From Gerris lacustris (taxonomy: Eukaryota > Arthropoda > Insecta > Hemiptera > Gerridae): DNA of 64,000 nt. The translations under genes were made by a program, and so were the position numbers. The notes beneath the pieces are model-generated. The model ran no database searches. It was not told the origin of the DNA and worked only from the letters and a program-made list of their open reading frames with translations. The DNA is taken from contig OX578286.1 of the NCBI GenBank assembly GCA_951217055.1, positions 36,240,345-36,304,344 on the forward strand, read 5' to 3'. Shown here in pieces: positions 5,459 to 28,986 of the stretch (position 1 is its first letter; each line of letters begins with the position of its first letter).

Positions 5459-5697
5459 ACCTCTTTAGATTGATACTCCCCTTATAAAAAATAGAATGAA
5501 GTAACAATCTAAAGGAGGTGTATGGAATGTTCTTCTTTAGACTGTTGCTCCCTTTATGAAAAACAGAAGTGTCATATTCCTTTGTCCCAAACTAGGTACA
5601 TTGGACTAAACATCCCTTTGTCGGAATGTATAAATAATTACGAGTATATCCATTTATATTCAAAAAATAACATAGGGAAGTAACAATCTAAAGAAGT
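5459..5697. mobile_element. MITE family A, copy b (one extra terminal hairpin)
   Basis: It begins CACCTCTTTAGATTGATACTCC and ends GGGAAGTAACAATCTAAAG. The left terminal repeat occurs twice, forming one hairpin unit ahead of the body (TTCTTCTTTAGACTGTTGC), then the shared interior. Confidence 0.8.
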
Positions 5698-5979
5698 ATC
5701 CTACTGTAACTAGTAGGTTACACATTAATGTAAACTTACGATTGGCATTTTTGTGTGTGGTACCAAATGACATTTGAAAGAATGAAAACTTAAATTTAAT
5801 TTAATATTTTGCTGCAAAATATTTTCTAATTTGTACCATTTTTCACCACTTCAAATTTTTTTTTTAATTTCACAAAATTCCAAAGTGATCAAACATGTAG
5901 TGGATTACCAATGGATTTCACGAATTTTTATGAACTAAATTTACCTTATGGAATTTTAGTCAATAAGATTCTAGTCATT

Positions 5980-5986
5980 ATCATCA

Positions 5987-6063
<77 letters not shown>

Positions 6064-6064
6064 T
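5980..6064. repeat. (ATT)n microsatellite
   Basis: Uninterrupted ATT triplets preceded by a few ATC triplets. Confidence 0.98.
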
Positions 6065-7480
6065 TGAAATAAATCTAAAATAAAGTAGTAATTTTTTTCC
6101 TATTTTCATGTTAACGAACCATTTGTGCCGTTTCTCAACAATGATTGTTTTTCAACGACATAAATATTCTTTCATTATAATTCGAATAAGTATCTTTTTG
6201 TTTTGATTAAGGAATAATGATGTTATCTTAAAGGTATCTAATTATATAAATATTAATTATTATTTTGTTATATTAATAATTTAAAGGATATTGAAATACT
6301 TTTTATCTAGTCTGTAAAAAAAAACTTTTTTGAAAATAAGATCTCATTTTGTAAAGATATATTTATTGTTTAAAATAAAGAAATTATTTTATTTTCATTT
6401 ACTTTATAAAAGAAACGATTTTTATTATTTTTGTTAAATATATATAATGATGTTAAAATTGTTGTACTTTGATGCTCCTTTTACATACTAGACTTAGTAC
6501 TGAAAGTCACATAGTTTTGCTGAAAATTACATATGTACCATATTCTAAATAATAGCATCATTCAGATGTTAGTATTCCTGCAATTTTTTTAAAAAGGGTT
6601 GTGAGTAAAATCATATTTTAAGATTTTTGCTGTATCTTTAAAGCAGTAATACCTTATAAGCTATATATTTATTTTTTCTGTTATTTTACATTTCGATCTC
6701 AATATTAGGTACATTACAGGATAGGAAATCGGTCGTTTTACACATTTAGTCGTCATGTTTATTCATCAGTTTGAAAAATGTCTTACCTCTCTGGGATTCC
6801 AGCCATTACAAGGTATGTCGGCTAACTTACTACCCACACTTTGCTCTCCGGTACCCTTATGCAATTACAGTTGGTACTTGCAGTACCATAGTTCATCCAT
6901 AATCGATACTGATGATGCCTCAAAGCTGTTTTGATAAATTAACAAGTACATATTATGTTACATGGAGGGATAGTTTGTTTGAATCCATAAAGATGGCCTC
7001 CATCACCCCACCCTAATGGTCATCAATAAGTTGCCATCAATGAATCGAGGTCGTGGGTTTTGTTCAGCGCAAAAGATGCTGTGATTTACATCTATGAATC
7101 GAGAGTGGAACAAGGTCAAACGAACATACAAAGAGATGCCAGGGAATCTGCAATGGGATCCCAGGGAACCCTACTCAGATTCCGAGGATATGGTGCTCCG
7201 ATTTGTACCTGTAAGTCCAAAGCGGTGCAGTGTCTTGGTTATGACCATAAGCCTTTGTCCTCTGATTTACATGGCTGAGATATGAGCATACCATACTCGC
7301 TTCCGTATTCTACAGAGGTATGATGTGTGAAGTAAATATAACTCTACCAAGAGGCTAGTTAAAAGTAAAAAGTGGAACTTAATTTTAATTATGTGCACTG
7401 GAACAGTATCTTTACATTAAACTTTCGCAAGTAGCTTTAACTAAATTTTATATTTAAAAATTCCTAAATTCGTAATTCGA
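6065..7480. other. AT-rich DNA without recognised features
   Basis: Two overlapping frames of 63-72 residues at 7060-7285 show no motif I recognise. Nothing else supported. Confidence 0.5.
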
Positions 7481-7556
7481 ATTGAATTACCATGTTATAT
7501 TATCAGATCATACTTACTCTGTCTACCTTTTTTTAATACATGATTCCATTTTGCAG

Positions 7557-7774
7557 GTACAGACCGTCAAATGTTCTCATGTCCTACATGCGATAAGACC
7601 TACAGTCAGAAGCGCAACATGCTTTATCATTGGCGTTACGATTGCGGTAAAGAGCCGAAGTTCGCCTGCCCACATTGTCCTTACAGAGCAAGAAGAATGT
7701 CTGCCCTCAAACCTCACATATTTTCCAAGCATCGTAACTCATTGTTACCCCCACACTTGCAGTCGTTTTTGTGA
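7557..7774 (+). CDS. lola: lola alternative 3' exon 4 (two zinc fingers)
   Basis: The acceptor is TTTTGCAG ending at 7556; 71 codons to TGA. Finger 1 is C2HC (C8, C11, H24, C29) with the linker DCGKEPKF; finger 2 is C2H2 (C37, C40, H53, H58) with CPHCPYRARR, typical of Lola. The tail is LLPPHLQSFL-like, proline-containing. An in-frame ATG at 7571 lies inside the exon and is not a likely start, because the frame extends back to the acceptor. ATTAAA is found at 7886. Nearly 5 kb separates it from exon 5. Confidence 0.93.
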
Positions 7775-9895: not shown

Positions 9896-11308
9896 TAACC
9901 AAACAAGTAATAAAGGAAAGATATAATATGAAAAACCAAGTGCCAATTATGTTTTACGAACGTGTGTTTTGGAAGAACTAAATAACTCCGAAGATTTTAA
10001 ATTTTAAAATGATGGTTTAAATAAGTACATGAGTGGCAAAGAAGTACTTTTTTGCCAGTTGACCATGAATTGATAAAAGTGATTGCCGCTTAAGTCAATT
10101 TCTTTTATCAGTGAAGAGTATTTAGAAGAAATTATGTTGAATTTGTTTTTTGGAAATTAAAAAAAAAAAAATCATATATTAATATTATGATGTTTTTATT
10201 AAGGAAAATGTCGTGTTTTAAAATAAATGTACTTAATACATTTTGAGGGATAAAATACAAAACTTAAAGCACGCTTCGTTTGATACAATAAAAATTGTGA
10301 TAGAATAGAGAAAATATTATTGTTGTTTGTATCATTTTGTTTAAATGAAATTATTATATAATGTATAAATAAATGTTGTCGATAAATTAGATGTGAATTA
10401 ATGTTTTATGTTTTTTTTTTTATACAAAAATCAATGTTATTTAGACCGATTAATAAAATTTGTTAAGGCATTTATGTAATTTTCATTGAAAGTCGGCACA
10501 AATTAATTTTATTCGCTATAAAGACTTATAAAAAGAATTAAAATTGTACTAAGACGGTTTTAGTTTATAGAAATAAAATATACAATAAATTACCTTCAAA
10601 TTCAGCAATTATTGTACACTGTCTTTGAGAGGTTATTGGTGTAAAAAAAATGCCCGTAGCTTAACATATTTTCATGTCTGAGCTCATCTTTACAGAGATT
10701 GTACAATACTATATTTATCTCAAAATATGTACTAAGTAATTCCGTGTATCAATTTTTTAAAATTTATATTTAAATTTTTATTTTTGTTAATGCCTAGCTA
10801 ATTTTTTTTTTATTATACTAATAATTAATACTATTTCATAGACATAAACTAGTTAATAAATATAAAAATATGTGAAATTAAAATGCATATTTGTGATCTC
10901 AAAATTAGTAAAATTACTTGTTTTTTACAAACATGTGTTGTTTCATGTTCCTTTAAGTTTTTTAATGTACGTCTGTCTTGATTTATTCAAGACATCAGAT
11001 TTTTTTGCAAGACATCCTACCCTTCATACTCCAAACGAAGAGGTTTGAGGGTGAGGTGATGGTGGTTTGATGGTGTGTACATGGGGTTACCAAATTGAAT
11101 CCAAACATGGTCTGTTTGCTAGGCTATTCATCCAGCATCGCGTATAAATAAGCAACTGATCATGTAAAGTAGCGACTAACAAGTTGCTTATGCCAATTTT
11201 AAATTAATAATTAACAAAATAAAAAAAAAAGAACATACAAGAATTTTACCTGCTTTTAAGTCTGCAGAGAAGAAAATTGTGCAGCATCCTGAGTTGCAGG
11301 CAATGTTG
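9896..11308. other. AT-rich DNA without recognised features
   Basis: No exon, RNA gene or clear repeat seen. Confidence 0.5.
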
Positions 11309-11626
11309 CTAGGTTACAAGAAGTTTTTGTTGCTGCCTTCGCAAACATCTACAACCGTAGGTCGTTGATATTTTGGATTTTATAGTTGCCTCCATGTAGT
11401 GAGGCAAGGAAGGTCCCTTCTCGGTGACCTGCTCAAGTGTGGCATTGGGGTCGAGGAAAATAGCAGCGTTCACTTCAAGGTGTTGGGTTTTCTTCAATGT
11501 CGAAAGAAATTTCATCTTCACTTGGCCAAAAAGTATTGATGTGAACCTCTGAAAGCTTGAAGAAAAGTTCAAGCCCTGATTGTGTTCCTTGCTTGAAGGA
11601 AATCGTTGAATACATGTCATTTGCAT
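11309..11626 (-). pseudogene. Possible hAT-type transposase fragment
   Basis: A 105-residue frame on the minus strand. Its middle contains FLSTLKKTQHLEVNAAIFLD, and the NAAIFLDP stretch is loosely reminiscent of the AxFLDPRxK element near the C-terminal dimerisation region of hAT transposases. No catalytic residues or BED finger are visible and no terminal repeats bracket it. It may equally be a chance frame. It lies in the gap between exons 4 and 5. Confidence 0.25.
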
Positions 11627-11825
11627 TTTTACCTATCCACTATTTTTCAAATAATATGTTCTGCTTTTGTACTTCTATTTTTGTTGATCGCGTGTGGTCC
11701 GCTACATCTGGTGCAACTCGTGCCACGCCATAGAGAAGGACCAATAATGCAATGTCCTCGCTAGGCATAGGCCATTTAAATAAATGTGGTTACTATCAAT
11801 CTGTCAGCATCTCATCTGCCTGAAG

Positions 11826-12090
<265 letters not shown>

Positions 12091-12728
12091 TTAATCTGGT
12101 GTGGTTATTTTCAACTTCCTTTAGCCTTTCAAATGTATCTTAATGTTTACCTATATATCTGGGAATATTGATGATTAAGTATTTGGTAAATATTTAAATT
12201 TTTCTTTGAAATTCTCTAATTTATTTATTTATTTTTCAATATTTAAAAACTGCATTCTGGCGTTTGAAATCGAATCACAAATCTTGATTCCGACGCGGGA
12301 AATTGAAGCACAAATCTTCTCGTTTTTCTGGTAAATAGAAAAATATCAAATATATAGAGTCCTTACTATTTGCCACATTGTAATTTTCTCACTAATGTTG
12401 GGACTGTATGTGTTATAACATTTTTATAAGCAAATTAAAAGCTATTCGATTCAATTCTGTGATTATAGCGCTCTGCCAAGGAATCAGTTTGATTTTCAGA
12501 GTTTGAGTGCATTTTTTTTTCTCATTTATTCGTTCTCAAAAAATGGCATTTATTTTCCTTGCATGGTTTAAAATTAACTCGTCTTTCTAACTTACTATAA
12601 TTCTTATTTTCTTTCGATTCTCAACTCTTAATCTTGTCTCTTTCAAACTCTTATATTGTCCGTATTATGAGAACTATTGATGATTTGAAATACTCTTACT
12701 TATTTGTCTCCTCTTTGTCGATTTTCAG

Positions 12729-12919
12729 GTCGTAATTCGTGCTCAGGTTGTTCCAGAACTTACACTCATAAACATCATTTAGCTTTCCATCTGAGATACG
12801 AATGTGGCAAAGAGCCTCAATTCCAGTGCCCACAGTGTCCTTATAGAGCAAAGAGGAAGGGAAATCTTCGAACTCACGTCGGCCTTGTACATAAAGCTGC
12901 TTTAGCTAACTTCACTTAA
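12729..12919 (+). CDS. lola: lola alternative 3' exon 5 (two zinc fingers)
   Basis: The acceptor is CGATTTTCAG ending at 12728; 62 codons to TAA. Finger 1 is C2HC (C4, C7, H20, C25; SGCSRTYTHKHHLAFH), unlike any other exon here. Finger 2 (C33, C36, H49, H54; QCPYRAKRKGNLRTH) and the tail KAALANF are almost identical to exons 6-8. Its 3' flank also matches the flanks of exons 7 and 8, while its 5' flank does not. It is therefore the left parent of the hybrid exons 6-8. The shared DNA suggests an overlapping but not identical target site among these isoforms. Confidence 0.94.
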
Positions 12920-13700
12920 TTTTGTTTTGTATAAATGTATTTTTTTTTTTTTTTTTTGTTTTTTTGTACATTTGTTAATAATAATTATGATTATAATATG
13001 TTGTTTAACAAATAATTTTCAACTCCTCCTCTGTCATACACTGTAAATGAGGAAATCATTGGTTGAATCGTTGGCATTATCAAATCAATTGTTTGCTCAG
13101 TAGGTTCTGTCATGCCAATGTCACAATGATCATGCTCTTGAACATGCTTCCAGTAATGGAAGCGAACTGATCAACTTTTCATTTCATGATATCATTCATG
13201 TTATCATGATGACTCCAGTCGCGATACAAACTACAGACATGTTAGAATAAATCCAAAAACTTTTTTGAACTCAGTGGACCATAAAGCGTGTAAAATCAAT
13301 CGAAATCAAATTTTTGTGCCATCACAATTCTTTCTCAATATTTTACAGATTGTATCAATTTCATGTCGCCATATTTGAAGGGGTGTTTCACAGATTATTT
13401 AGACGATATTTATAATCCGATTATTAAAGGTGTAGGAGCTATAAAAAAATAGAGTGTGTTAAAATCAATTATCCTTTACTTGATCGACTCACCTGACCTT
13501 TCCAACGATTGGTTCTTCATTAATCTAATATTAATATTTTTTGAGTTATTGCAATTTTTTAAGATAAGGGCCGATTAATTTTAACTCAATATATTCTTGT
13601 TTATGAGTATTTGGTAAATATTTACATTTTTATTCTCTTACTTTTTTTATAACATTTAAAAAAACTGCATTCCAACTCTAGAAATCGAATTTGTTTGCTC
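12920..13700. repeat. 3' flank of duplicated exon unit (copy 1)
   Basis: Homologous to 15266-16260 and to 17030-17395 plus 18545-18825. Shared blocks include AAATGAGGAAAT, TTTGCTCAGTAG and the relic ATGCTTCCAGTAATGGAAG. This marks the right part of the tandem-duplicated exon unit. Confidence 0.8.
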
Positions 13701-13789
13701 CAAAAAAACACCTGTTTCAATATGGGGATATTAATTGATACAACATGTTTACTGCGTACACGAGAAAGTATAAAACGCTACCATCTCCT

Positions 13790-14140
13790 TCCTTTTTCAA
13801 CTCACAGTTTAGGTTTATTGCTCTTTTTCAATAACTCCTCTCTACCCTTCTCTGTCATTGTAGAACGCGCAGTTTAGGCATAGTAGGTACCCTCTTTCAA
13901 TAACTCCTCTCTACCCTTCTCTCTCCTTGTAGAACGCGCAGTTTAGGTATAGTACCCTCTTTTAATAACTCCTCATTTCCCTTCTCTGTCATTGTAGAAC
14001 GCACAGTTTAGGTGTAGTACCCTCTTTCAATTACTCCTCTCTACCTTTCTCTGTCCTTGTAGACCGCACAGTTTAGGTCTAGTACCCTCTTTCAAGGACT
14101 CCTTTCTACCCTTATCTGTCCTCGTAGAACGCAGAGTTTA
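13790..14140. repeat. 65-bp minisatellite (CTCTTTCAATAACTCC...)
   Basis: The unit contains CTCTCTACCCTTCTCTGTCC, TTGTAGAACGCACAGTTTAG and GTATAGTACC; copies are spaced 65-69 bp. A shortened copy is at 14810-14895 and a longer array at 16310-16650, each in the 5' flank of a hybrid exon, so it is part of the duplicated unit. Confidence 0.9.
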
Positions 14141-14180
14141 GTATATCTTACTCATTCGTAATCATTGTACATGCGTTTTG

Positions 14181-14186
<6 letters not shown>

Positions 14187-14227
<41 letters not shown>
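14187..14227. repeat. Poly(T) tract
   Basis: About 41 consecutive T, 135 bp upstream of exon 6. Confidence 0.95.
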
Positions 14228-14231
<4 letters not shown>

Positions 14232-14362
14232 AATATAGGATGAAAATAAACATAGTTATTGTAATGTCCATATAATCTAAATATTTATATGTAAATGTAG
14301 ATATGTTTAGTTTGCCCTGTATAATTTTAAACGTGATATTTAGATTCCTGTTATTTTCACAG

Positions 14363-14562
14363 GTGATCCTCGCAGACCGTTCCCCTGCAATTGTGGAAAA
14401 AGATACAAGTCCAAAGAAATTCTACGTCAACATCAGACCTACGAATGTGGCAAAGAGCCGCAATTCCAGTGTCCTCAGTGTCCTTATAAAGCAAAGAGGA
14501 AGGGAACTCTTCGAACTCACATCGGCGTTGTACATTATGCTCCTTTAGCTAATTTATTTTAA
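14363..14562 (+). CDS. lola: lola alternative 3' exon 6 (hybrid exon, CxC variant)
   Basis: The acceptor is TTATTTTCACAG ending at 14362; 65 codons to TAA. The first half (DPRRPFPC, GKRYKSKEILRQH) belongs to the same family as exons 7-9; the second finger and tail match exon 5. Relative to exon 7, one codon is missing between the first two cysteines, giving C8-N-C10 in place of C-X2-C; the other ligands are H23, C28, C36, C39, H52, H57. The tail has diverged slightly (HYAPLANLF). Its 3' flank is partly deleted and carries a relic (14609-14668) of the foldback family seen at 40371. The reading frame is otherwise intact. Confidence 0.92.
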
Positions 14563-15062
14563 TTTTTTTTGTGTAAATATATTTTTTTTTAATGTGCATT
14601 TATGAATAGCTGCTTTGGCAATAATTCTTTTTTTAATTTACGTGAAGATACAGTTTGTGTTATTCCTTTTCAACATTGGTCATACATTATTTCAATATTT
14701 ATATATCTTGAGTTATTGCATATTTTTAAGGTACAGGTCAATTGATTTTAACATACATCGTATATGCTACGTATATTAGAAAGTGAAAAAACACTACCCA
14801 TCTTCTTCCTTTTTTAACATACAGCTTAGGTATACCGCCCTCTTTCAATAGCTCCTCTCTACCCTTCCCTATCCTTGTTGAACGCAGAGTTTAGTATATC
14901 TTACTCATTCTTAATTACTGGACATGCGTTTTGACAAAACTTTTCATTAATATAGGAATAAAATAAACATATTTATTGTAATGTCTCTGCATGATCTACT
15001 TATTCATAAGTTAATATAGATATTTTTAGTTTGCCCTTTATAATTTTGAACGTAATTCACAG

Positions 15063-15265
15063 GTGATCCTCGCAGACCATTCCCTTGTGCTAATTGTGGA
15101 AAACGATACAAGTCCAAAGATAATCTACGCCAGCATCAGACTTACGAATGTGGGAAAGAGCCGCAATTCCAGTGTCCTCAGTGTCCCTATAAAGCAAAGA
15201 GGAAGGGAAATCTTCGAACTCACGTCGGCGTTGTACATAAAGCTGCTTTAGCTAATTTCTTTTAA
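15063..15265 (+). CDS. lola: lola alternative 3' exon 7 (hybrid exon)
   Basis: 66 codons to TAA. Finger 1 is C2HC (C8, C11, H24, C29; CANCGKRYKSKDNLRQH), finger 2 is C2H2 (C37, C40, H53, H58; QCPQCPYKAKRKGNLRTH), tail KAALANFF. It is nearly identical to exons 6 and 8. The acceptor AG (15061-15062) is present, but compared with exons 6 and 8 about 20 bases carrying the polypyrimidine stretch just upstream are missing (ACGTAATT joins CACAG directly). The coding part shows no damage, so either the exon still splices weakly or the loss is recent. Confidence 0.88.
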
Positions 15266-16260
15266 TTATTTTTGTTGTGTAAATATACTTTTTTTAATTA
15301 TGCCTTTATTAATAATAATTTTTTTTTAAAACATTTCAATTGACAAATTTCTTTTAACTCCTGCTCTCTTTCACATAGTAAATGAGGAAATTATTGGAAT
15401 TATCAAAAGCAATTTGCTCAGAATTTATTTTTGAGTTCACTACACCACTATGATCAACGTTCTTGAACATGCTACCAGTAATGGAAGTGAACCGATCAAC
15501 TTAAAATTTCTCAAGACGTGGTCTTAAACGTAAAATTTTAACTTCATGACCACTCCAGTCACTACCACAGACCACATATGTGTTAAAAGTATATAAAAAT
15601 TTTCTCTTGGACTCAGTAGTCCATAGGTGGGATATAGACCCTGACTTAGTTGCAATAAAATTGCTTCGTCTTCAATCTCTTCTAAGTGCAAATAGAAGAG
15701 CAAATCGCGGACATCATTGTCACCCTTACACTACCGAGGCCGCACACCAACTGAACGCATTCATAGGAAACCCTATAACCTGCGTCAGCTGTATGCATCA
15801 GCCGCAGCATAGGAATCGCACCTTTAATGTGTGTCAATCGAAATCAAATTTTTGCCTACTAATACAGGGTGTAGCAATATCATTTTGCCTTATAGAATGG
15901 TGTGTTTCTACAAGTTATTTAAAGAAAGCAAGATCATATTATATGCTATAGTCCGATTCTCAAAGGTTTAGGAGGTATAAGCAAAAATTAAGTTTGATAA
16001 AATCATTAGATCTTCACCTTAAAACAGTGATAATTAACAAATTCTTTCATAAAATCATTATTATTAAGTCCTACAACTGCTGTAAGCACAACATGTTTTG
16101 TTTTGCAACCATTTAGTTAAAAATCCTATCTTTTGTTTTTAAACAGCGCTCTTGGTTGTTGTCATAATCTTTTCAACATTGGACTTATATTGTTGCAATA
16201 TTAATATTTCTTGAGCTATTGCAATTTTTTTGGGGGGTAAAGGTCAATTGATTTTAACAT
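15266..16260. repeat. 3' flank of duplicated exon unit (copy 2) with 205-bp extra segment
   Basis: Homologous to 12920-13600. At about 15628-15834 it holds roughly 205 bp absent from copy 1, richer in G+C than the flank and open through a 123-residue frame (15580-15951). I recognise no motif in it. The rest is the shared AT-rich flank. Confidence 0.7.
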
Positions 16261-16309
16261 ACACCGCGTATTCTACTTATATAATAAAATGAATAACGCT
16301 ACCCATCTC

Positions 16310-16650
16310 CTTTCTTTTTCAACGCACAGATAAGGTATAGTACCCTCTTTCAAGAACTTCTCTTTCTTGTTAAACGCACAGATTAGGTATAATACCCTCA
16401 TTCAAGAACTTCTCTCTACCCTTCTCTATGCTTGTTGAACGCACAGATTAGGTATAGTAACCTCATTCAAGAACTTCTCTCTACACTTCTCTATGCTTGT
16501 TGAACGCACAGATTAGGTATAGTAACCTCATTCAAGAACTTCTCTCTACCCTTCTCTATGCTTGTTGAACGCACAGTTTAGGTAAAGTACCCTCTTTCAA
16601 TAACTCCTCTCTACCCTTCTTTGTCCTTGTAGACCGCACAGTTTAGTATA
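16310..16650. repeat. 65-bp minisatellite, second long array
   Basis: Same family as 13790-14140 (GAACGCACAGATTAGGTATA, CTCTCTACCCTTCTCTATGC). About 5 copies upstream of exon 8. Confidence 0.9.
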
Positions 16651-16829
16651 TCTTAATCACTGGACATGTAAATAAATTGCACGATCTATTTATTTATATG
16701 TTAATGTATATAAATATTTTTTGTTATTAGTGAGCTGTTAATATGGATTAAATATATGTTAATGTAGATATTTTAGATTACCCTTTATAAATTTGAACGT
16801 AATTGCTAGATTTCTGTTTATTTTCACAG

Positions 16830-17029
16830 ATGATCCTCGCAGACCATTCCCCTGCTACAAATGTGAAAAAAGATACAGGTCCAAAGATAATCTACGTCAG
16901 CATCAGAAATACGAATGTGGCAAAGAGCCGCAATTCCAGTGTCCTCAGTGTACATATAAAGCAAAGAGGAAGGGAAATCTTCGAGCTCACATCGGCGTTG
17001 TACATAAAGCAGCTAATTTCTGGCTTTAG
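16830..17029 (+). CDS. lola: lola alternative 3' exon 8 (hybrid exon)
   Basis: The acceptor is CTGTTTATTTTCACAG ending at 16829; the first bases AT (siblings have GT) change the junction residue. 65 codons to TAG. Finger 1 is C2HC (C8, C11, H24, C29; CYKCEKRYRSKDNLRQH), finger 2 is C2H2 (C37, C40, H53, H58; QCPQCTYKAKRKGNLRAH, with T in place of P in the CPY motif). The end KAANFWL differs from the KAALANF of siblings: a small deletion shifted the ending, and the old sequence GCTAATTTCTTTTAA remains just past the stop. An ATG at 16793 is intronic and not a start. Confidence 0.93.
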
Positions 17030-17395
17030 CTAATTTCTTTTAATTCTTTTTTTGTGTAAATATATTTTTTTTTACATATGTCTCTATTAATAATAATATT
17101 TTTTATAATATTTTAATTGACAAATTACTTTTAACTTCTGCTCTCTTTTACATAATAAATGATGAAATTATTGGAATGATCAAATTATTTTTTGCTCAGT
17201 AGTTTGTTTTAAGTCAACACCACTATGATCAACGTTCTTGATCATACTTCCAGTAATGGAAGTGAACCGACCAACTTAACTTTCCTCATGACCTGATCTT
17301 CATCGTCTTGAGAGCGAGTGATTCAACCTTAAATATCATGTCGACTTTAGTCACTTCCACAGACCACAAATATGTTATAATAAAACACACAATTT
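17030..17395. repeat. 3' flank of duplicated exon unit (copy 3), interrupted
   Basis: Matches copies 1 and 2 up to about 17395, where a dispersed element (17399 onward) interrupts it; the flank resumes at about 18545-18825 (GGGTGTATCAATTTCAT, GATTGGTCCTTCATT). Confidence 0.8.
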
Positions 17396-17398
17396 ATT

Positions 17399-18540
17399 GG
17401 AACGAAGTTCCTTATGGCACATTCTGGAGCCCGGAAGTAAATCCGAAAAAACGACCAAAATCACCGTCACAAAATAACCGTCACAAAATCACCGTCACAA
17501 AATCATCGCCACGCAAAATCCGTCACGAAATCTACCGATGACAATAACTTGAGTAAAAGATCACCGAGTTAGTTAAAATTTGGTACACATATTCATTTTA
17601 CCAATGCCCAGGCTAAGGTAGTTGGACCACGTAATCCGCCCAAGCGTTCACGCGCAACGCTCGCGTAAACGTAAGCTTCAAAAGTCTTAAGACGGGGAAA
17701 ACTGTTATTAAGGAAGCCTGTTACTTGACTTGTTTTGTTTATTTTTGTTATATGTCAAAATGTCACTTGGTTTTGTAAATATCGAAAGTATAATCACGGT
17801 CTTGTTAAAAGTAAAATTGATCTGTGCTGATGCTTATTTCAATATAGTAGGTATATTATTATAATACAGCGTACTTAATCCAAGAAAAAATTCTAACTTC
17901 ATCTATTTAATGAGACAAACAACTTTTTTGAATATTTTTTTTGTTTAAAACGAATACTGACACTGTTATGAAGTGATAAAGATCGCTAAATTTATTAAAG
18001 TGGACCTAAACGTTTAAAATTAAGAAAAACAACGTTTTTACCGATATCTTCCGTTCTAACGCATAACGATTTTAATAAAACTTCTTACACTTTGTCTAAA
18101 GTACAATTGAAACAGGCATGTAAAATTTCAACCTGATACAAACAGAACCTCTAGAGTAGAGAAGAGATATACTTTATAATATTTTAAATTAATAGGCCAG
18201 GTAGGTAGAAAACAGCCCTATTTCAATCCAACATCCTTTAACACACATACTCTTCAACTATATTAAACTCATCATGATCAACTTTTTTCTTATGTTCAAT
18301 ATATATTTATTATAACACGCTTGCTTTAATGATACAAATAATGCTTTTCTTAACTCTGCTAGGCACAAACAGTTAGTTACTTTTAATTTTGCCTCTTTTC
18401 TAACTTCTCCATGTATAAGTAGTTAGAAATGTATATACGTACTTAGCAGTGTAATTTTATAATTTATTTAATGAAAAATGTAAGGAACTTCGTTCCTACC
18501 GGGTGTCCTGTGACACGGCACGTATTTTTGTTTAATATCC
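17399..18540 (+). mobile_element. Dispersed element with GGAACGAAGTTCC motifs, copy 1
   Basis: The palindromic motif GGAACGAAGTTCC opens it at 17399 and closes the core at 18484-18496; similarity to copy 2 (61690-62556, opposite strand) continues past the motif into CCTACCGGGTGTCC. Near the left end it carries CCGTCACAAAAT minisatellite units (17455-17530). It has no intact gene. It sits inside the duplicated exon flank, which dates it as later than the duplication. Confidence 0.75.
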
Positions 18541-19046
18541 GTGGATTTATTACTCTATCTATATTATACAAGGGTGTATCAATTTCATATCTTTATATAT
18601 TGAAAGTGTTTTAGGTTATTGGGAGCAAAAAAGTTAACATAAGCTATAGTTCAATTCTCAACGGTGTATGAGCTCTAAGCAAAAATATATATATAAGTAG
18701 ATAGTGTGTTAAAAATCAATGACCTTTGCCTGATAGACTGTAGTAAACTTTCCAAAGATTGGTCCTTCATTGTTCCAATATAAATAGTTTTGAGTAATTG
18801 CAAATGTTTAAGGTAAATATAGGAAGGGAATATAAATTGTCATATTTTAATGTCCCTGTATTATCTACATATTCTTATTGTCTATTTTCTTTTAGTTGAT
18901 CTCTTATGTTTCATTCTATTCTTATTCTTTTAGGGATATTTAGGGATGAAAATTAAGAAATTATTTTCTTTTAATTCATTTAAAAGCTAAATTTCGCCCA
19001 TACCAGGGCATCTTCAGGCCTTAAACTGAACTATCCGGAAATTAAC

Positions 19047-19247
19047 TTGGTACGTAGGCTTCCGCGGGTAGATTCGTCATAAATAGCTTGGGTAATACGC
19101 CGTTCTTCTCTCCAGTCGTCAGTATATCCTGTGTTTGCTTCGTGTAAACACCACGATGCACCACACCCCTGAAGATGCTTCCAGTAGTGGAAGCGAAACG
19201 TCGGATTTCAACCCCTTCGTAACGCTGATTTCACCGGAAACCCAAGC
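19047..19247. mobile_element. Foldback MITE family B, partial copy
   Basis: The right-end half (GATGCTTCCAGTAGTGGAAG, GATTTCACCGGAAACCCAAG) is shared with 56114-56276 and, more distantly, with the two-armed copy at 38938-39279. Confidence 0.75.
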
Positions 19248-19291
19248 TGTTTATCCGGAAGTTAACATGTATAATGTATAAATAATAACAA

Positions 19292-22200
19292 ATCACCAAT
19301 TTGGAGTAACGAGATACTGACTATTCTTAATTTTAAAATTTGGAGTAATCATTACAACTAACTCTCCCATTCCATTGTTAACGAGATACTGACTATTCTT
19401 AACTTTCAAATTTGGAGTAATCGTTACAACTAACTCTCCCATTCCATTGTTAACGAGATACTGACTTCTTAATTTTCAAATTTGGAGTAATCATTACAAC
19501 TAACTCTCCCATTCCATTGTTAACGAGATACTGACTCTTCTTAATTTTCAAATTTGGAGTAATCGTTACAACTAACTCTCCCATTCCATTGTTAACGAGA
19601 TACTGACTTCTTAATTTTCAAATTTGGAGTAATCATTACAACTAACTCTCCCATTCCATTGTTAACGAGATACTGACTTCTTAATTTTCAAATTTGAAGT
19701 AATCATTACAATTAACTCTCCCATTCCATTGTTAACGAGATACTGACTTCTTAATTTTCAAATTTGGAGTAATCGTTACAACTAACTCTCCCATTCCATT
19801 GTTAACGAGATACTGACTTCTTAATTTTCAAATTTGAAGTAATCATTACAATTAACTCTCCCACTCCATTGTTAACGAGATACTGACTTCTTAATTTTCA
19901 AATTTGGAGTAATCGTTACAACTAACTCTCCCATTCCATTGTTAACGAGATACTGACTTCTTAATTTTCAAATTTGAAGTAATCATTACAACTAACTCTC
20001 CCATTCCATTGTTAACGAGATACTGACTTCTTAATTTTCAAATTTGAAGTAATCATTACAATTAACTCTCCCATTCCATTGTTAACGAGATACTGACTTC
20101 TTAATTTTCAAATTTGGAGTAATCGTTACAACTAACTCTCCCATTCCATTGTTAACGAGATACTGACTTCTTAATTTTCAAATTTGGAGTAATCATTACA
20201 ACTAACTCTCCCATTCCATTGTTAACGAGATACTGACTTCTTAATTTTCAAATTTGAAGTAATCATTACAATTAACTCTCCCATTCCATTGTTAACGAGA
20301 TACTGACTTCTTAATTTTCAAATTTGGAGTAATCATTACAACTAACTCTCCCATTCCATTGTTAATGAGATACTGACTCTTCTTAATTTTCAAATTTGGA
20401 GTATTCATTACAACTAACTCTCCCATTCCATTGTTAACGAGATACTGACTCTTCTTAATTTTCAAATTTGAAGTAATCGTTACAACTAACTCTCCCATTC
20501 CATTGTTAACGAGATACTGACTTCTTAATTTTCAAATTTGAAGTAATCATTACAATTAACTCTCCCATTCCATTGTTAACGAGATACTGACTTCTTAATT
20601 TTCAAATTTGGAGTAATCGTTACAACTAACTCTCCCATTCCATTGTTAACGAGATACTGACTTCTTAATTTCAAATTTGAAGTAATCATTACAATTAACT
20701 CTCCCATTCCATTGTTAACGAGATACTGACTTCTTAATTTTCAAATTTGGAGTAATCGTTACAACTAACTCTCCCATTCCATTGTTAACGAGATACTGAC
20801 TTCTTAATTTTCAAATTTGAAGTAATCATTACAATTAACTCTCCCATTCCATTGTTAACGAGATACTGACTTCTTAATTTTCAAATTTGGAGTAATCGTT
20901 ACAACTAACTCTCCCATTCCATTGTTAACGAGATACTGACTTCTTAATTTTCAAATTTGAAGTAATCATTACAATTAACTCTCCCACTCCATTGTTAACG
21001 AGATACTGACTTCTTAATTTTCAAATTTGGAGTAATCGTTACAACTAACTCTCCCATTCCATTGTTAACGAGATACTGACTTCTTAATTTTCAAATTTGA
21101 AGTAATCATTACAACTAACTCTCCCATTCCATTGTTAACGAGATACTGACTTCTTAATTTTCAAATTTGAAGTAATCATTACAATTAACTCTCCCATTCC
21201 ATTGTTAACGAGATACTGACTTCTTAATTTTCAAATTTGGAGTAATCGTTACAACTAACTCTCCCATTCCATTGTTAACGAGATACTGACTTCTTAATTT
21301 TCAAATTTGAAGTAATCATTACAATTAACTCTCCCACTCCATTGTTAACGAGATACTGACTTCTTAATTTTCAAATTTGGAGTAATCGTTACAACTAACT
21401 CTCCCATTCCATTGTTAACGAGATACTGACTTCTTAATTTTCAAATTTGAAGTAATCATTACAACTAACTCTCCCATTCCATTGTTAACGAGATACTGAC
21501 TTCTTAATTTTCAAATTTGAAGTAATCATTACAATTAACTCTCCCATTCCATTGTTAACGAGATACTGACTTCTTAATTTTCAAATTTGGAGTAATCGTT
21601 ACAACTAACTCTCCCATTCCATTGTTAACGAGATACTGACTTCTTAATTTTCAAATTTGGAGTAATCATTACAACTAACTCTCCCATTCCATTGTTAACG
21701 AGATACTGACTTCTTAATTTTCAAATTTGAAGTAATCATTACAATTAACTCTCCCATTCCATTGTTAACGAGATACTGACTTCTTAATTTTCAAATTTGG
21801 AGTAATCATTACAACTAACTCTCCCATTCCATTGTTAATGAGATACTGACTCTTCTTAATTTTCAAATTTGGAGTAATCATTACAACTAATTCTCCCATT
21901 CCATTGTTAACGAGATACTGACTCTTCTTAATTTTCAAATTTGAAGTAATCGTTACAACTAACTCTCCCATTCCATTGTTAACGAGATACTGACTTCTTA
22001 ATTTTCAAATTTGAAGTAATCATTACTATTAACTCTCCCATTCCATTGTTAACGAGATACTGACTTCTTAATTTTCAAATTTGGAGTAATCGTTACAACT
22101 AACTCTCCCATTCCATTGTTAACGAGATACTGACTTCTTAATTTCAAATTTGAAGTAATCATTACAATTAACTCTCCCATTCCATTGTTAACGAGATACT

Positions 22201-22560
22201 GACTTCTTAATTTTCAAATTTGGAGTAATCGTTACAACTAACTCTCCCATTCCATTGTTAACGAGATACTGACTTCTTAATTTTCAAATTTGGAGTAATC
22301 GTTACAACTAACTCTCCCATTCCATTGTTAACGAGATACTGACTTCTTAATTTTCAAATTTGGAGTAATCGTTACAACTAACTAACTCTCCCATTCCACT
22401 GTTAACGAGATACTGACTTCTTAATTTTCAAATTTGGAGTAATCATTACAACTAACTTTCCCATTCCATTGTTAACGAGATACTGACTTCTTAATTTTCA
22501 AATTTGGAGTAATCGTTACAACTAACTCTCCCATTCTATTGTTAACGAGATACTGACTCT
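19292..22560. repeat. 70-bp satellite array, about 46 copies
   Basis: The unit is AACGAGATACTGACTTCTTA, ATTTTCAAATTTGGAGTAAT, CATTACAACTAACTCTCCCA, TTCCATTGTT. Variants alternate (TTGGAGTAATCGTTACAAC versus TTGAAGTAATCATTACAATT), giving a higher-order two-unit pattern. A longer period is also visible: a distinctive run of units at 20292-20498 recurs at 21765-21971, 1473 bp later. Frames inside it are artefacts. Confidence 0.97.
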
Positions 22561-22663
22561 TTTTAATTTTCATCCCTAAAGACCCCTAAAAGAATAAGTA
22601 CATATTCTTAGTTTGCCCATTATCATTCTGAACATGATTTCTAGATTCCTGTTATTTCCACAG

Positions 22664-22866
22664 GTGATCTCAGACCATTTGCCTGCTATAATTGTGGAAA
22701 AAGTTATAAGTCCAAAGATAATCTACGTCAGCATCAGAACTACGAATGTGGAAAAGAACCTAGCTTTGCCTGCCCTCTATGTCCATACAGAGCTAAAAGA
22801 AGAGGTACTCTTAGAGCTCATCTAGTGAGGATGCACTTCAAAGAAAAACTCCTTGAACTTCCTTAA
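22664..22866 (+). CDS. lola: lola alternative 3' exon 9 (two zinc fingers)
   Basis: The acceptor is TTATTTCCACAG ending at 22663; 66 codons to TAA. Finger 1 (C7, C10, H23, C28; CYNCGKSYKSKDNLRQH) and the 5' flank match exons 6-8. Finger 2 (C36, C39, H52, H57; CPLCPYRAKRRGTLRAH), the tail FKEKLLELP and the 3' flank do not. It is the right parent of the hybrid exons: it kept the original second half that exons 6-8 lack. The nearest AATAAA is distant (23548). It sits directly after the 70-bp satellite, 54 bp from its inverted-repeat edge. Confidence 0.94.
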
Positions 22867-22983
22867 AAATTGGACACCGGTCGTTTCTAAGTCATTTCTA
22901 CTTTTCTCAAAGAATTCACAATGCATTAAATTCTACTGCTGACATTTTCTTTTATATTTTGAGTACTTAAATCGGGTGATAGA

Positions 22984-23288
22984 TTTATGGTTAACCAGCA
23001 TCTAGATAGATGCTAAGTACTAATCATTACTTTCGCCCTTAAAAACACCCTTAAACCCTAAAAGATTTTGAGGGTCGTGTTTTTTCTAAATATTCAATCT
23101 TTTAATGGATGTACAACAAACATTTGTATTCGATTGGTTAACCAGCATCTAGACTGATGCAAAATACTAAGCACTACTTTCGTTCTTAAAAGCACCCTTA
23201 AAACCCTTAAACATTTTTAGGGTCATGTTTTTTTTTCTTAATATTTAATTTAAAATCTTGTGATGGATATAAAACAAATATTTGTATG
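22984..23288. repeat. Direct duplication, 147 bp, 2 copies
   Basis: Both copies start at GGTTAACCAGCATCTAGA (22989 and 23136) and contain TACTTTCG and CACCCTTAAA; moderately diverged. Confidence 0.85.
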
Positions 23289-23779
23289 CTGTGATACCGC
23301 ACTATATTTACAAACATTTTTGTTTTTAGTGAGCGCTTTATTATTATAATTATTTGATTTATTTTTTCCTTGAATTTAATTTTTAAGCTGATTAGTAATT
23401 ACCTGATCATTATGTATTTAGTAGTGTACTATGTGATTGGCTTTTAATAGTTAAACCATTTCAAGTGATTTTTTGTCTTTGTATTATATACAGCAGTTAA
23501 ATTATGTACGCAATCGATTGATAATGTATATTTATTTGTTACAATGCAATAAAAAAATCTTTAGTTATTTATTTGTTTTATTGTATTTTCCAGAAATTAA
23601 ACTTGCTAATAAAAATAATATATCTTAAACGGTTGATCATTTAATTACAATAAATTACATACAAAACAATTACATTTACAATAACTTATTCACTTAATAA
23701 TGGAAATGTGTGTAATTAGTTTTTGACATTCATAATCTAAATAAGATGTATAAATTTAGCAACCGTTAAATTATGAATT

Positions 23780-24646
23780 ATCCTTAAAATTAGTGAGGTA
23801 CGGTTTAAATAAAAAAAAACTACATAGTTTGACCAACTAGTTTCGTGTAATTTGCACACATCGTCAGGGTATAACTACAGATAATAGACAAAATATACTG
23901 AATTTAAAGTATATACATGTTGACGTTAGGAATAGGACTGGTCAAGAAATGATAGAGTAAATAGAGGAGTTAGAAAGGATTGAAGGTGGGAGGCAAGAAG
24001 GACGTGAGAGGATTAACAGTAAAAGAAAGGCCAGGTGTAAAGGGTGGTGGATCCAGGTAAAAGAAAGGGGCTACATTTTATATTACAAACTAGACTTAAA
24101 AAACTAATATCACAAAAAAACAAATCATAAATATTGCACTGAACTAAATAATAATTCGAAAAACATAAATTAACAGTGAGACAAGACTAAGATTTGTTTT
24201 TTGTTTTTGTTTATCTTTTCAGTAAAGTTTATTATTCTTAGTCTTGTCTCACTGTTAATTTATGTTTTTCGAATTATTATTTAGTTCAGTGCAATATTTA
24301 TGATTTGTTTTTTTGTGATATTAGTTTTTTAAGTCTAGTTTGTAATATAAAATGTAGCCCCTTTCCTTTACCTGGATCCACCACCCTTTACACCTGGCCT
24401 TTCTTTTACTGTTAATCCTCTCACGTCCTTCTTGCCTCCCACCTTCAATCCTTTCTAACTCCTCTATTTACTCTATCATTTCTTGACCAGTCCTATTCCT
24501 AACGTCAACATGTATATACTTTAAATTCAGTATATTTCGTCTATTATCTGTAGTTATACCCTGACGATGTGTGCAAATTACACGAAACTAGTTGGTCAAA
24601 CTATGTAGTTTTTTTATTTAAACCGTACCTCACTAATTTTAAGGAT
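23780..24646. mobile_element. Near-perfect long palindrome, about 411-bp arms
   Basis: The left arm 23780-24191 and right arm 24237-24646 are reverse complements with only a few mismatches that I could find, around a 45-bp loop. The ends read TCCTTAAAATTAGTGAGG and its inverse. No long reading frame. Likely a young foldback element; a transcript through it would form a very long hairpin. Confidence 0.92.
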
Positions 24647-25318
24647 AAATCTAAATAAGGTTGATATTAGCTACGTTTACATGGTGTATTGTAGCTACTT
24701 GATCTTAATACTGTATCTTTCCATGTAAACTCATTGCATTTAATCTAGGTCATCTTAAGGCCAATACACCAAAAGTCTGAACTGTATCGTATTGAACACA
24801 GCTTCAGTTACACATAGACACTTGACTGTAGTCGAGATCGTATCACCTGGCTTAGCTTGCAAGAAGGGCATGCGCATTGAATGCATGCGCAGTTTTATGT
24901 TTCTTTCTTTGGTAACCTGCCACATCAGCTGCATAACATAACCTCCTTTATAAAGGAATAATTATGATATATAGCGTAAATTAAACTGTTTTAAAAGTTT
25001 ATTGTTATGTCAATAAAACTTTCAACAGCGATCAGATTCCTTCAGAACAGCAGGTAAAGATGTGATTGTGCTTTGTTTATAGCCTGTACGGAACGCTGCG
25101 TTCAAGAAGAGAGGGTGGGGGAAAACATGGGGCGACGTCTCTTCAGCTTCATTAATGTATTGTTATCTATATAGCCCGAAACTGCGTGAACTCATCTTTA
25201 TAGATGATTAAAATTAGTTATGGTTGATCCACAACTCAAGCCCTAGAATCTTACAAATTGCTTTATCTCAATCTAGAATAAATCTACTGCTACAATTTAA
25301 AGATAAGTACCTAAAAGG
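24647..25318. other. Intergenic/intronic DNA without recognised features
   Basis: No exon or clear repeat seen. Confidence 0.5.
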
Positions 25319-25546
25319 CACTTCTTTAGATTGTTACTCCCCTCATAAAAAAACAGAGGGGAGTAACAATCTAAAGAAAGTGTAGGGAATGTTCTTCTTT
25401 AGACTATTACCCTTATAAAAACAGAAGTGAGATATTCCTTCGTCCCAAAGTACACTGGACTAAACATTCCTTTTTCTTAATAGTTATTTAGTCAAATTCA
25501 TTTTGATTCTAAACCAACATAGGGGAGTAACAATCTAAAGAAGTAC
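25319..25546. mobile_element. MITE family A, copy c (one extra terminal hairpin)
   Basis: It begins CACTTCTTTAGATTGTTACT and ends GGGGAGTAACAATCTAAAG. One complete hairpin unit (arms TTGTTACTCCCCTC and GAGGGGAGTAACAA) precedes the body. Interior matches copies a, b and d. Confidence 0.85.
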
Positions 25547-26405: not shown

Positions 26406-26602
26406 TTGACCCTCAGCGGAAATTCATGTGCTTCAATTGCGGCAAATGTTACAAATACAGAGACAATCTTCGTCAGCATCAGCAATACGAATGCGGCAAA
26501 GAGCCTCAACAATTCTGTCCTCATTGTTCTTACAAAACTAAACTAAAGCATAATTTAAACAGGCACATTATTCTTCAACATCGACCAACATTTCCGTGCT
26601 AA
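26406..26602 (+). CDS. lola: lola alternative 3' exon 10 (two zinc fingers)
   Basis: The acceptor is TTTTTTTTTGTACTTTCAG ending at 26405; 64 codons to TAA. Finger 1 is C2HC (C8, C11, H24, C29; CFNCGKCYKYRDNLRQH), with an additional Cys14. Finger 2 is C2H2 (C37, C40, H53, H58; CPHCSYKTKLKHNLNRH). It opens the subgroup of exons 10-15 that share the aromatic YKYK-like first helix and KLK second finger. AATAAA is at 26656, 54 bp after the stop, so a short 3' UTR is expected. The tail is RPTFPC. Confidence 0.94.
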
Positions 26603-26885
26603 GGCACAAGAATTTAAAAAATGTTTTTAAGTACTTAATTGCAAAATAATTATCAAATAAACTGTGATTTTTCTAGTTAAACTGTATTCATTTTTTATCT
26701 AACATCGTTTAAATTAATCTAGTTTTTTTTAATGATATAAAAATGTTTATAATTTTGACGTTTTAACATTTAGATGATTGAAAACTGTGCAATTTTGTTT
26801 TTAAATATAAATACCGTCTATCGAAGGAGTTCAGTTTTTACCATATCATGAATCTGATTATTATCATCTATAACTTTTTAACGTT

Positions 26886-27600
26886 ATAACCTTTTGACAT
26901 TTTTATGTCTTGGCTATGCTACATAAACTCGAAAAGCGTTACTAAAAATCTAGACCAAAAAGCGTTACACGTGTAATAGGGAGTTAGGAGGGTATAGGAG
27001 GTAGGCAATCAAGACCGCCCGCATTCGGTATAGAGTCTCCCCCTACCGCGGTTGGTGGAGTCTACCCACCGCTCCCCTACCGATCGGCTACCTGCCCCAC
27101 ATCTCACTCTTCGTTTCTCGCTTGCTACCGATCCAGCAGTCGCTCGCGTGCCCTAGCGGCGCCCCCCCCCCCCCCCTCCCCAACCGTAACTTCTATTCTA
27201 CTCCGATTTGCACCGGACAAACGCCAAACCCCCTAAAATTTTTATTCCTAATAAACTTACATACATAACATTTATTTTTTACTTTATTATTTTTTATTTT
27301 TGCTATACATACTATAATTGTTTGCATTTATTATAAAAATATGGGTGAAGAAGCTAAAAGATTACTTTTTAATAAACTGGAAAAGAAGAAAAGTACTTTC
27401 TTTCTTCGTGCACAACATATTTTCGATTTAATTCCTAATTTACAAACTCAAGAATCTGCACCATCGAATTTTTTGACATTTTCATGTCTTTACTTTGACG
27501 CATAAACTCGAAAAGCGTTTCCAAAAAACGACACCAAAAAGCGTTACACAAGCATTACCAAAAAAAATACACCAAAAAGCGTTACATGAAAATGTCTCAC
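26886..27600 (+). mobile_element. Retroelement-like remnant, second copy
   Basis: It begins like 1440 (TTTTGACATTTTTATGTC, GAAAAGCGTTACTAAAAATC) and has a C-rich leader with poly(C). A short frame opens at 27341 after an AT-rich leader (MGEEAKRLLFNKLEKKKSTF, stop by 27505). The starting motif TTGACATTTTCATGTC returns at 27473, as a second terminal repeat would, and ACATGAAAATGTC follows at 27584. No pol motifs. Probably an internally deleted LTR-type element. Confidence 0.35.
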
Positions 27601-28860
27601 TGCCTTGCAGACTTGTATACAAGAAGTTCTTTATTATTTCTATATATTCTGATCATTTTTATGGATAGATGGTATACTTTTGGCTATAAATGGATACCGT
27701 TTGATGCTATTTATCATCATTTTTCATTATCTTTTGTTTAATTAAAATTTATAAATGTTTACCAGCAGCATTATTAGTTTCTTTCTGTAGCCAATTAAAT
27801 TCCCTAAAACTCCTAATGCCTATACCCAGAATTATTAATTATGTATCTTGAAACTTTTCCATTCTTTGTTACCATTTTTAAATATCATTCTTTGTAGATT
27901 TCTTAAAAGTAAAAATTGTTGTTTTAGCGAATTTTCAAAGAAAATGACGCTATTGCAATGGCTTCAAAATTTTTGTAATGCGAATTTTAGAAAAAATTTT
28001 CCATGGAAATCCGTTTTAGACCATTCTGAATCGATTCCTAAAATTTAACACTTTTTTTATGTATGTATGTATATATGTGTCACTCCAGACGATATCTCCC
28101 CTTAGGATGCAAATTTTAAAATGTCAATAATATCAAAAGAAAGGATGAGTTTTACGTCAAAAATAGCATAAAAACGTGTTTTTTTCATTTTACGCCCCTT
28201 TTATATGAAAATATGATAAAAGTGTACATAACAACAATTACTGTACTCTTAAAGAGCTTTCCAACGACATGCATCTTAAAGGGTAAATACGATTTTGACT
28301 TTTGTACCTCGTACCCCTGTGTATCAAATTTTTTTTTCACCCATGCAAATTCTAAACCAAAATTTTCCTATATTATCATAATCCAATAATATGCAGATTT
28401 CTTTGAAAATTCGCTCATTAGGTCATTGTGCATGACTGGACTTTTTTTGTTCAGGCCCACATTTTTCTGTAGTCCAATATCTTATGTAAGTTTTTAGATC
28501 TTTGGAAAATTATCCACCGATTACGACATACGAAAAAAGAAATATTAAAATAATTATAGAATTATATTAAAAATATTATTATTCTTAAAATAGTCTGCCA
28601 ATAAATTTCTCGCGTCCTAATATTGGATAAATGTTCACATGAGATTTGGCTCCCTTTCAATTCCCAGTACAGTCCCTTTTGTTTCTTATTTAATATTAAA
28701 TGTAAGCAGAGGGTAATGTGCATGTGGAAGAGAAACAAATGGACCGAAGAAGGTTGAATCTTATATGCGGGAGTACAATTTGCCTAATTATGGCGTCATC
28801 CAAATCTTATTATAATCAGTCGAGTAGTTTAAGAAGAAGATGACCTTGAGTTATTGTAAA
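27601..28860. other. AT-rich DNA without recognised features
   Basis: A 66-residue frame at 27848-28048 has no motif. Nothing else supported. Confidence 0.5.
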
Positions 28861-28986
28861 TAATGATAAAAGAACATTATACATTTCTTAATATGTTAAG
28901 AAATTTGGTTAGTTTCTGTGGAAAGAAAAGAATAAAATCCAGTTTTTATAAAATTCTGTTATATTTTCTCTTTTATTCTCTTCCAG

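Follow-up and report, generated by a model that had tools for sequence, protein, structure and literature searches.

Three hybrid two-finger exons between their probable parents in a zinc-finger exon array of Gerris lacustris

How does a gene with an array of alternative zinc-finger exons come by new combinations of fingers? We address this question in Gerris lacustris, in a window of 64,000 nucleotides (nts) that corresponds to C10:36240345-36304344 of the 937-Mb genome (contig OX578286.1, here C10; short positions are counted from the first base of the window). By a pattern-based scan of both strands, the window includes 19 two-finger exons, all on the plus strand, as are the exons, exon halves and units located below. 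Each of them encodes a first finger with a terminal Cys (C2HC), a linker of the Y-E-C-G-K-E type, and a C2H2 finger. The question is most concrete for exons 5 to 9. All five have a CAG acceptor and end in their own stop codon, and their reading frames place them in a single phase. An initial annotation, made from the sequence alone, proposed that exons 6-8 combine the second half of exon 5 with the first half of exon 9, and its coordinates for the cluster stand: exon 5 starts at 12729, after an acceptor that ends at 12728, and the stop of exon 9 ends at 22866.

Exons 6 to 8 are hybrids of the exons that flank them

Exons 6 (14363-14562), 7 (15063-15265) and 8 (16830-17029) are confirmed as half-and-half hybrids of the exons on their two sides. 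In a MAFFT alignment, the first finger of exon 5 has a nucleotide identity of 48, 47 and 50% to those of exons 6, 7 and 8, while the identities for the second finger are 88, 93 and 88%, and those for the 3' flank 53, 69 and 68%. Exon 9 is the reverse, with 85, 83 and 86% in the first finger and 58, 58 and 56% in the second. Among themselves, exons 6-8 are 84-88% identical in the first finger and 91-94% in the second. If we name the halves of exon 5 A1 and A2, and those of exon 9 B1 and B2, the order along the DNA is A1A2, B1A2 (three times), B1B2, as initially proposed, and this order is mirrored both by the half-specific identities and by the intervals between the exons. In exon 5, A1 with its own 5' flank occupies 12729-12796, the linker (TACGAATGTGGCAAAGA) 12797-12813, and A2, which includes second finger, tail and stop (12917-12919), 12814-12919. 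In exon 9, B1 and the linker occupy 22664-22757, and the second finger, tail and stop of B2, followed by their own 3' flank, 22758-22866.

The switch between halves maps to the linker. Pooling the three hybrids, the intervals within two log-likelihood units are 12787-12799 in exon 5 and 22748-22761 in exon 9, which in common alignment columns leave about 26 nts for the switch, corresponding to the YECGKE linker. This tract is homologous in both parents, which are identical at 16 of the 17 linker bases and share TACGAATGTGG (11 nts) exactly. The halves have different nearest relatives and the flanks switch along with them, the 3' flank of exon 6 contributing only 46 nts.

In a one-breakpoint likelihood test on the coding alignment, none of 2000 shuffles reaches the observed value in any of the six parent-hybrid comparisons, and the break falls at 12787 or 12796 in exon 5 and at 22757 in exon 9. 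The three hybrid-hybrid pairs are not significant (1759, 1535 and 269 of 2000 shuffles reach the observed value), and for exon 5 versus exon 9 the test is significant (9/2000) but with the break in the C-terminal tail (12904). When the flanks are included, all ten pairs become significant (0/2000 in nine, 16/2000 in one) with several of the breaks elsewhere, and this version is therefore not specific. The linker breakpoint expected from the initial annotation thus appears in all six parent-hybrid pairs of the coding test, but not specifically in the test with flanks.

Units that run from linker to linker

Cutting the region at the linkers defines four intervals, from 12797 to 22740. U1 (12797-14439) runs from the exon 5 linker to the exon 6 linker, and consists of A2, a spacer, and B1. 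U2 (14440-15142) lacks about 500 nts of the spacer, U3 covers 15143-16909, and U4 (16910-22740) is enlarged by several kb of insertions. Colinear chains of local matches link all six pairs of units, with mean identities of 74-85% and covering 41-80% of the shorter unit. The chained lengths are 560 of 703 nts for U1-U2, 1257 of 1643 for U1-U3 (74% mean identity), 695 of 1643 for U1-U4, 406 of 703 for U2-U3, 415 of 703 for U2-U4, and 718 of 1767 for U3-U4. The flanking stretches 10500-12796 and 22758-25500 have no match to any unit save 12165-12275 to U1, and the control stretches 5600-7570 and 26600-28900 match none. Colinear units surrounded by unrelated outer sequence are what the duplication of an A2-spacer-B1 unit predicts, with the linker of exon 5 as its left end and that of exon 9 as its right end.

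The 3' flanks agree with these units in part. Exons 5, 7 and 8 match one another over 390-406 nts or so, including about 260 nts of 3' flank. A genome search with 390 nts of A2 and its 3' flank finds 23 matches including itself: exons 7 and 8 in full length (74 and 73%), exon 6 over 161 nts, and 19 others of 32-108 nts, seven on C10 and twelve on other contigs. The similarity to exons 6-8 initially described for the second finger, tail and 3' flank of exon 5 therefore holds for exons 7 and 8, but in exon 6 the flank match is short (46 nts), because its interval lacks those 500 nts. The reverse pattern described for exon 9 holds for the shared first finger and for the unique second finger and 3' flank (22867-24200), the latter with matches in the window confined to itself and adjoining sequence up to 24651; the 5' flank of exon 9 matches over about 66 nts only (from 22598), owing to an insertion of about 3.7 kb upstream.

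We consider it quite probable that the cluster arose by a linker-to-linker tandem duplication of A and B followed by amplification. The ancestral array would have had two neighbours, A, which is today's exon 5, and B, today's exon 9, and one tandem duplication with both ends within the Y-E-C-G-K-E linker would have joined the linker of A to that of B. The duplicated unit would run from the A linker through the A second finger and the spacer to the B linker, and its junction would create the hybrid B1A2, with the splice acceptor and first finger of B and the second finger, stop and 3' flank of A. Amplified to four copies, the unit would yield three hybrids. In general, a duplication ended in linkers would give n exons and n-1 related spacers, with the parents at the edges. 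From the second unit onwards, ordinary recombination between these longer repeats would be possible. This history builds on what is directly demonstrated: the half-switch, its position, and the unit-wise repetition.

The spacers also bear on the view that these are five separate exons, in which gene conversion homogenised the second fingers of exons 5-8 or the first fingers of exons 6-9. Conversion has some mark here: synonymous differences among exons 6-8 number 1, 0 and 0 in the second finger versus 6, 2 and 4 in the first, so that some homogenisation of the second finger after the duplication is likely. Conversion of the fingers only would leave the spacers unrelated, and yet each of the four spacers is colinear with the others over several distinct blocks, and the match of exons 5, 7 and 8 continues into the 3' flank. 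We regard conversion of separate exons as improbable. The same units make it highly implausible that the cluster is an assembly artefact or consists of alternative haplotype copies placed in tandem; the region is repetitive and includes a 70-nt minisatellite, but the unit blocks differ by 15-26% on average, their indels differ between units, and the contig spans 43.6 Mb.

Two insertions are located in U4. That at 17394-18540 has a partial second copy at 61686-62561 in opposite orientation (two pieces, at 81.5% and 85.5%), and GAACGAAGTTCC-type motifs lie close to its ends. The other, at 18921-22598, has 39-nt inverted repeats at its ends and 46 copies of the 70-nt minisatellite (19307-22572); U2 and U4 align on either side of it. 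Elsewhere in the spacers, a 65-nt tandem repeat lies 5' of exons 6 (13799-14145, 5.3 copies) and 8 (16357-16650, 4.6 copies), and similar pieces precede exon 7. A 418-nt inverted repeat, 98.8% identical, lies between exons 9 and 10 (23775-24192 and 24236-24651).

Silent sites, trees and the joining of the halves

Silent sites bear on a different history, in which a B1A2-like exon was duplicated whole and the first half of exon 5 and the second half of exon 9 were replaced later, or diverged fast under selection. Where exons 7 and 9 encode shared residues, 14 codons of the first finger are identical and 4 differ silently, as against 3 and 11 in the second (p=0.0036). The step has p=0.0086 for exon 8 and p=0.027 for exon 6, where the missing residue was set one codon off, affecting one position. 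Selection on the protein alone would give no step at silent sites, and so fails to explain the second finger of exon 9, which differs silently from the hybrids at 10-11 of 14-15 shared codons; nor is such selection sufficient for its unrelated 3' flank. A whole-exon duplication would also require two independent replacements, one at either margin of the cluster and both stopping at the linker. Two observations favour it. A foreign protein, P0001, presents a B1A2-like combination from another source, and in the protein tree of the second finger, exon 9 falls within the group. On balance we find this history unlikely.

In a codon half-contrast ranking of 2016 pairs, made with the 64 exons of a 314-kb region described below, the pairs of a hybrid and exon 9 rank 1st, 2nd and 5th. 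We give no weight to pairs with exon x03, which look misregistered, as x03 has an extra residue after the linker cysteine.

The trees agree with the duplication model, of which the spacers are the convincing part. Nucleotide trees of the 19 exons group exons 6-9 for the first-finger half (support 86/95) and exons 5-8 for the second-finger half (93/93). The protein tree of the first finger also holds exons 6-9 together (86/86), and forcing exons 5-8 there gives p=0.068 in the approximately unbiased (AU) test. In a parsimony incongruence test on seven exons, run with three different outgroup pairs, the observed value is reached by 82, 7 and 0 of 5000 permutations, and two whole-exon control sets are far from significant (3638 and 5000 of 5000). 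The conflict between half-trees predicted initially is therefore present in the nucleotide trees and supported by the incongruence test, but the AU test rejects neither alternative and the protein tree of the second finger includes exon 9.

Several results weigh against the duplication model, or against its being the whole history. In the nucleotide trees, forcing the opposite clade costs 3.1 and 9.5 log units (AU p=0.36 and 0.12; not rejected at 0.05). The protein tree of the second finger holds all five exons; exon 9 has a long branch and pairs with exon 6 (91/93), and the AU test rejects neither of the two clades (p=0.36 and 0.19). The AU tests are weak because the halves are short. The synonymous step of exon 5 versus the hybrids has p between 0.57 and 1, with merely 5-6 residues shared in the first finger, and the pairs of exon 5 with a hybrid fall outside the top 24 of the codon half-contrast ranking. 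Since those shared residues are too few for a codon test, the argument at exon 5 is its 5' flank, which has no match save one of 115 nts. Between hybrids there are synonymous steps in the reverse direction (p=0.031 for exons 6 and 7, 0.029 for exons 7 and 8, 0.14 for exons 6 and 8). The silent step is consequently not specific to the junction and does not prove it alone, and the pattern at these codons suggests a later conversion of the second finger among the hybrids.

In the noncoding sequence, the chains between units are incomplete, and a half-and-flank test fails to match the 3' flanks of exons 5 and 6. Exon 5 was initially given a first finger and 5' flank of its own; the finger is indeed distinct (47-50%), but in the flank 12165-12275 matches 13591-13690, in the spacer of U1, at 71%. 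None of 200 Markov simulations reaches the score of this 115-nt match. A dispersed repeat was considered as its cause but not detected, as the exon 5 copy, searched against the genome, hits only itself and one piece of 40 nts. The U1 copy sits in a gap between the aligned blocks of U1-U2 and of U1-U3; both an insertion in U1 and a loss from the other units are possible, and the 5' flank of A may share an older ancestry with the unit. Finally, the first-finger, second-finger and flank segments yield discordant groupings of the unit copies, and so no single order of amplification, which makes later conversion between units likely.

P0001, the nearest of the foreign proteins, is closest to exon 9 in its first finger (15/25) and to exon 5 in its second (20/28), so that the B1A2-like combination may have come first. 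In protein searches of other organisms, exon 7 matches two proteins and exon 5 three, four different proteins overall, and exon 9 has no match. There are matches to 120 solved sequences, and the 60 among them that were listed are zinc-finger proteins in general. A scan of viral contigs gives one locus with a 39-nt match.

For the first event of a linker-to-linker duplication, the initial annotation named a single misaligned exchange within the linker, followed by amplification. The spacers support the duplication of the unit, but crossing-over is not established as the mechanism because the shared tract is short. Across the 2016 pairs of exons, the median length of the longest identical run is 8 nts, in 861 pairs this run falls on or close to the linker, and TACGAATGTGG is present exactly in 14 of the 64 exons. 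Tracts on the scale of 11 nts are short for meiotic crossing-over, so that the first event is no less likely to have involved microhomology-mediated joining or template switching. We give roughly even chances to an origin of the same hybrid unit through microhomology-mediated repair or through template switching in replication, as opposed to meiotic unequal crossing-over. Such joining fits the 11 nts perfectly shared by A and B, the near-identity of their linkers, and the general position of the identical runs; against it, A and B may once have been more alike, and the original length of the tract is unrecoverable. This alternative opposes only the mechanism named initially, and our best explanation leaves the chemistry of the joining open.

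Hybrid exons in a large array

The hybrids keep their open frames and all zinc-ligand residues. In a crude neutral simulation, with a manually chosen indel rate of 0.006 per base and lineages treated as independent, the probability of three hybrids being all open and in frame is 0.012 to 0.0007 at 6-14% change per lineage. Individual hybrids have their peculiarities. The pyrimidine tract of exon 7 is weak (11/20, versus 14-17 in the others of exons 5-9), so that this exon would be the likeliest to be silent, exon 8 has an altered tail, and the first finger of exon 6 has CX1C instead of CX2C spacing. Pfam zf-C2H2 scores a single finger in exon 6 and likewise in exon 5, and exons 7-9 score two each. 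We ruled out that the exon 6 finger is a broken one, as the same spacing is found in seven other exons: exon 2 of the window and six upstream (C10:36124297, 36129179, 36159919, 36184070, 36185846 and 36187874).

In standard helix numbering, zinc fingers contact DNA at positions -1, 2, 3 and 6. The residues predicted at these positions are H,H,H,F and R,G,N,T for the two fingers of exon 5, S,D,N,Q and R,G,N,T for exon 7, and S,D,N,Q and R,G,T,A for exon 9. By this prediction, hybrid exon 7 reads as a combination of the first contact set of exon 9 and the second of exon 5. Presuming expression and DNA binding, it is likely that a common protein part can now be joined to finger pairs found in neither A nor B.

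The array of paired-finger exons extends far outside the window. A pattern scan of both strands of 36.00-36.20 Mb finds 40 paired C2HC and C2H2 exons, all on the plus strand. Joining 36000001-36314000, with 344 bases read as N and plus-strand matches only kept, we collected by pattern the 64 exons of the 314-kb set (C10:36065162-36313035; loci L010-L034 and the window). In a genome search with the exon 7 peptide, 150 of 3041 candidates were scored, and all of these are on C10, most at 36.08-36.96 Mb and others at 38.2-40.3 Mb, three of them on the minus strand, while some have an internal stop. We infer that the array consists of alternative terminal exons of a lola-type insect transcription-factor gene, as its exon layout presumably fits lola. 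A scan of 36.00-36.13 Mb for three BTB-like motifs, expected from a shared BTB hub exon upstream, found none, and lola is a putative identity.

Of the 2016 pairs of the 314-kb set, some resemble each other in one half (more than 76% identity) and are clearly unlike in the other. They are exon 5 with exons 6-8, exons 6-8 with exon 9, x31-x33 with x34, exons 8 and 9 with exon 10 (77-79% versus 60-62%), and the distant pair x08-x57 (77% in the second finger versus 48%). Flank matches on the matching side occur only in the cluster of exons 5-9, at the 3' side for exon 5 with exons 7 and 8, not 6, and at the 5' side for exons 6-8 with exon 9.

The other candidate cluster, seemingly an older case, is x31-x36 (36179387-36186740), where x31-x33 are 82-83% identical to x34 in the second finger and 52-67% in the first, and where the alignments of x31-x33 to x34 and x35 begin about 7-20 nts before the linker glycine codon. 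Its incongruence is not significant (1408 and 3192 of 5000), x31-x33 and x34 have no 3' flank in common, and x31-x33 also match x36 across both fingers (70-72%), so we do not take it as a second hybrid cluster but only as a lead. In this neighbourhood (C10:36179387-36187874, L027-L028) the first fingers of x34 and x35 are like x36/x37 and the second like x31-x33, and an irregular extra copy near 36184614 was overlooked by the exon pattern. The 314 kb include one clear event, that of exons 5-9, and one lead.

It is a tentative and rather doubtful extension that the gene could be a standing generator of two-finger combinations, in which breaks at the linker, most often the identical stretch between unlike exons, would repeatedly re-pair fingers. 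Exons 6-8 would then be the best-defined outcome of this process, an older outcome would be the cluster at 36.179-36.187 Mb, and the array as a whole may number well above a hundred exons.

Related processes are described in other systems. Lee, Kim, Roy and Graveley (RNA 16:91) reportedly attribute the expansion of Dscam exon arrays to 'staggered homologous recombination'. Dscam is like our locus in having tandem arrays of alternative exons, and unlike it in that they encode parts of Ig domains; here they are terminal two-finger exons, the exchange lies in the linker between domains, and both parents flank the hybrids. For Dscam exons 6 and 9, earlier work leaves recombination among variants open (PMC1397879), and a study of Daphnia and Drosophila reports no evidence that Dscam exons converted one another (PMC3236188). 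A partial-duplication model for mutually exclusive exons concerns RNA structures (PMC6071210). PRDM9 is similar in that zinc-finger repeats are remodelled by duplication and non-allelic conversion, but its fingers lie inside the final exon of one protein, and ours in alternative exons (PMC2779102). The clustered protocadherins likewise have tandem variable exons whose 3' part is regionally homogenised; that homogenisation is ascribed to gene conversion (PMC1852091), and here it is a duplicated unit that includes the spacer.

In exon layout, the comparison is to lola in Nasonia, with 181 alternative 3' introns over 325 kb, and in Apis, with 58 over up to 200 kb; a similar expansion is reportedly not seen in other insects (PMC5000498). 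There, one hub exon joins to many alternative 3' coding exons, as a putative hub would here. The pertinent section deals with counts and spacing, not with recombinant exons (PMC5000498). Among the listed literature on lola exon duplication and alternative exons, hybrid lola exons are not reported.

Exons 5-9, where the two parents still flank their products, show a gene gaining new DNA-binding pairs, of presumed binding specificities, without a new gene. An exchange in the linker leaves each finger intact and puts the fingers in new pairs, with an acceptor and a stop retained. As parents and products coexist, they can be tested side by side. If exchanges of this kind recur in the large arrays of Nasonia and Apis, they would help explain the diversification of those arrays.

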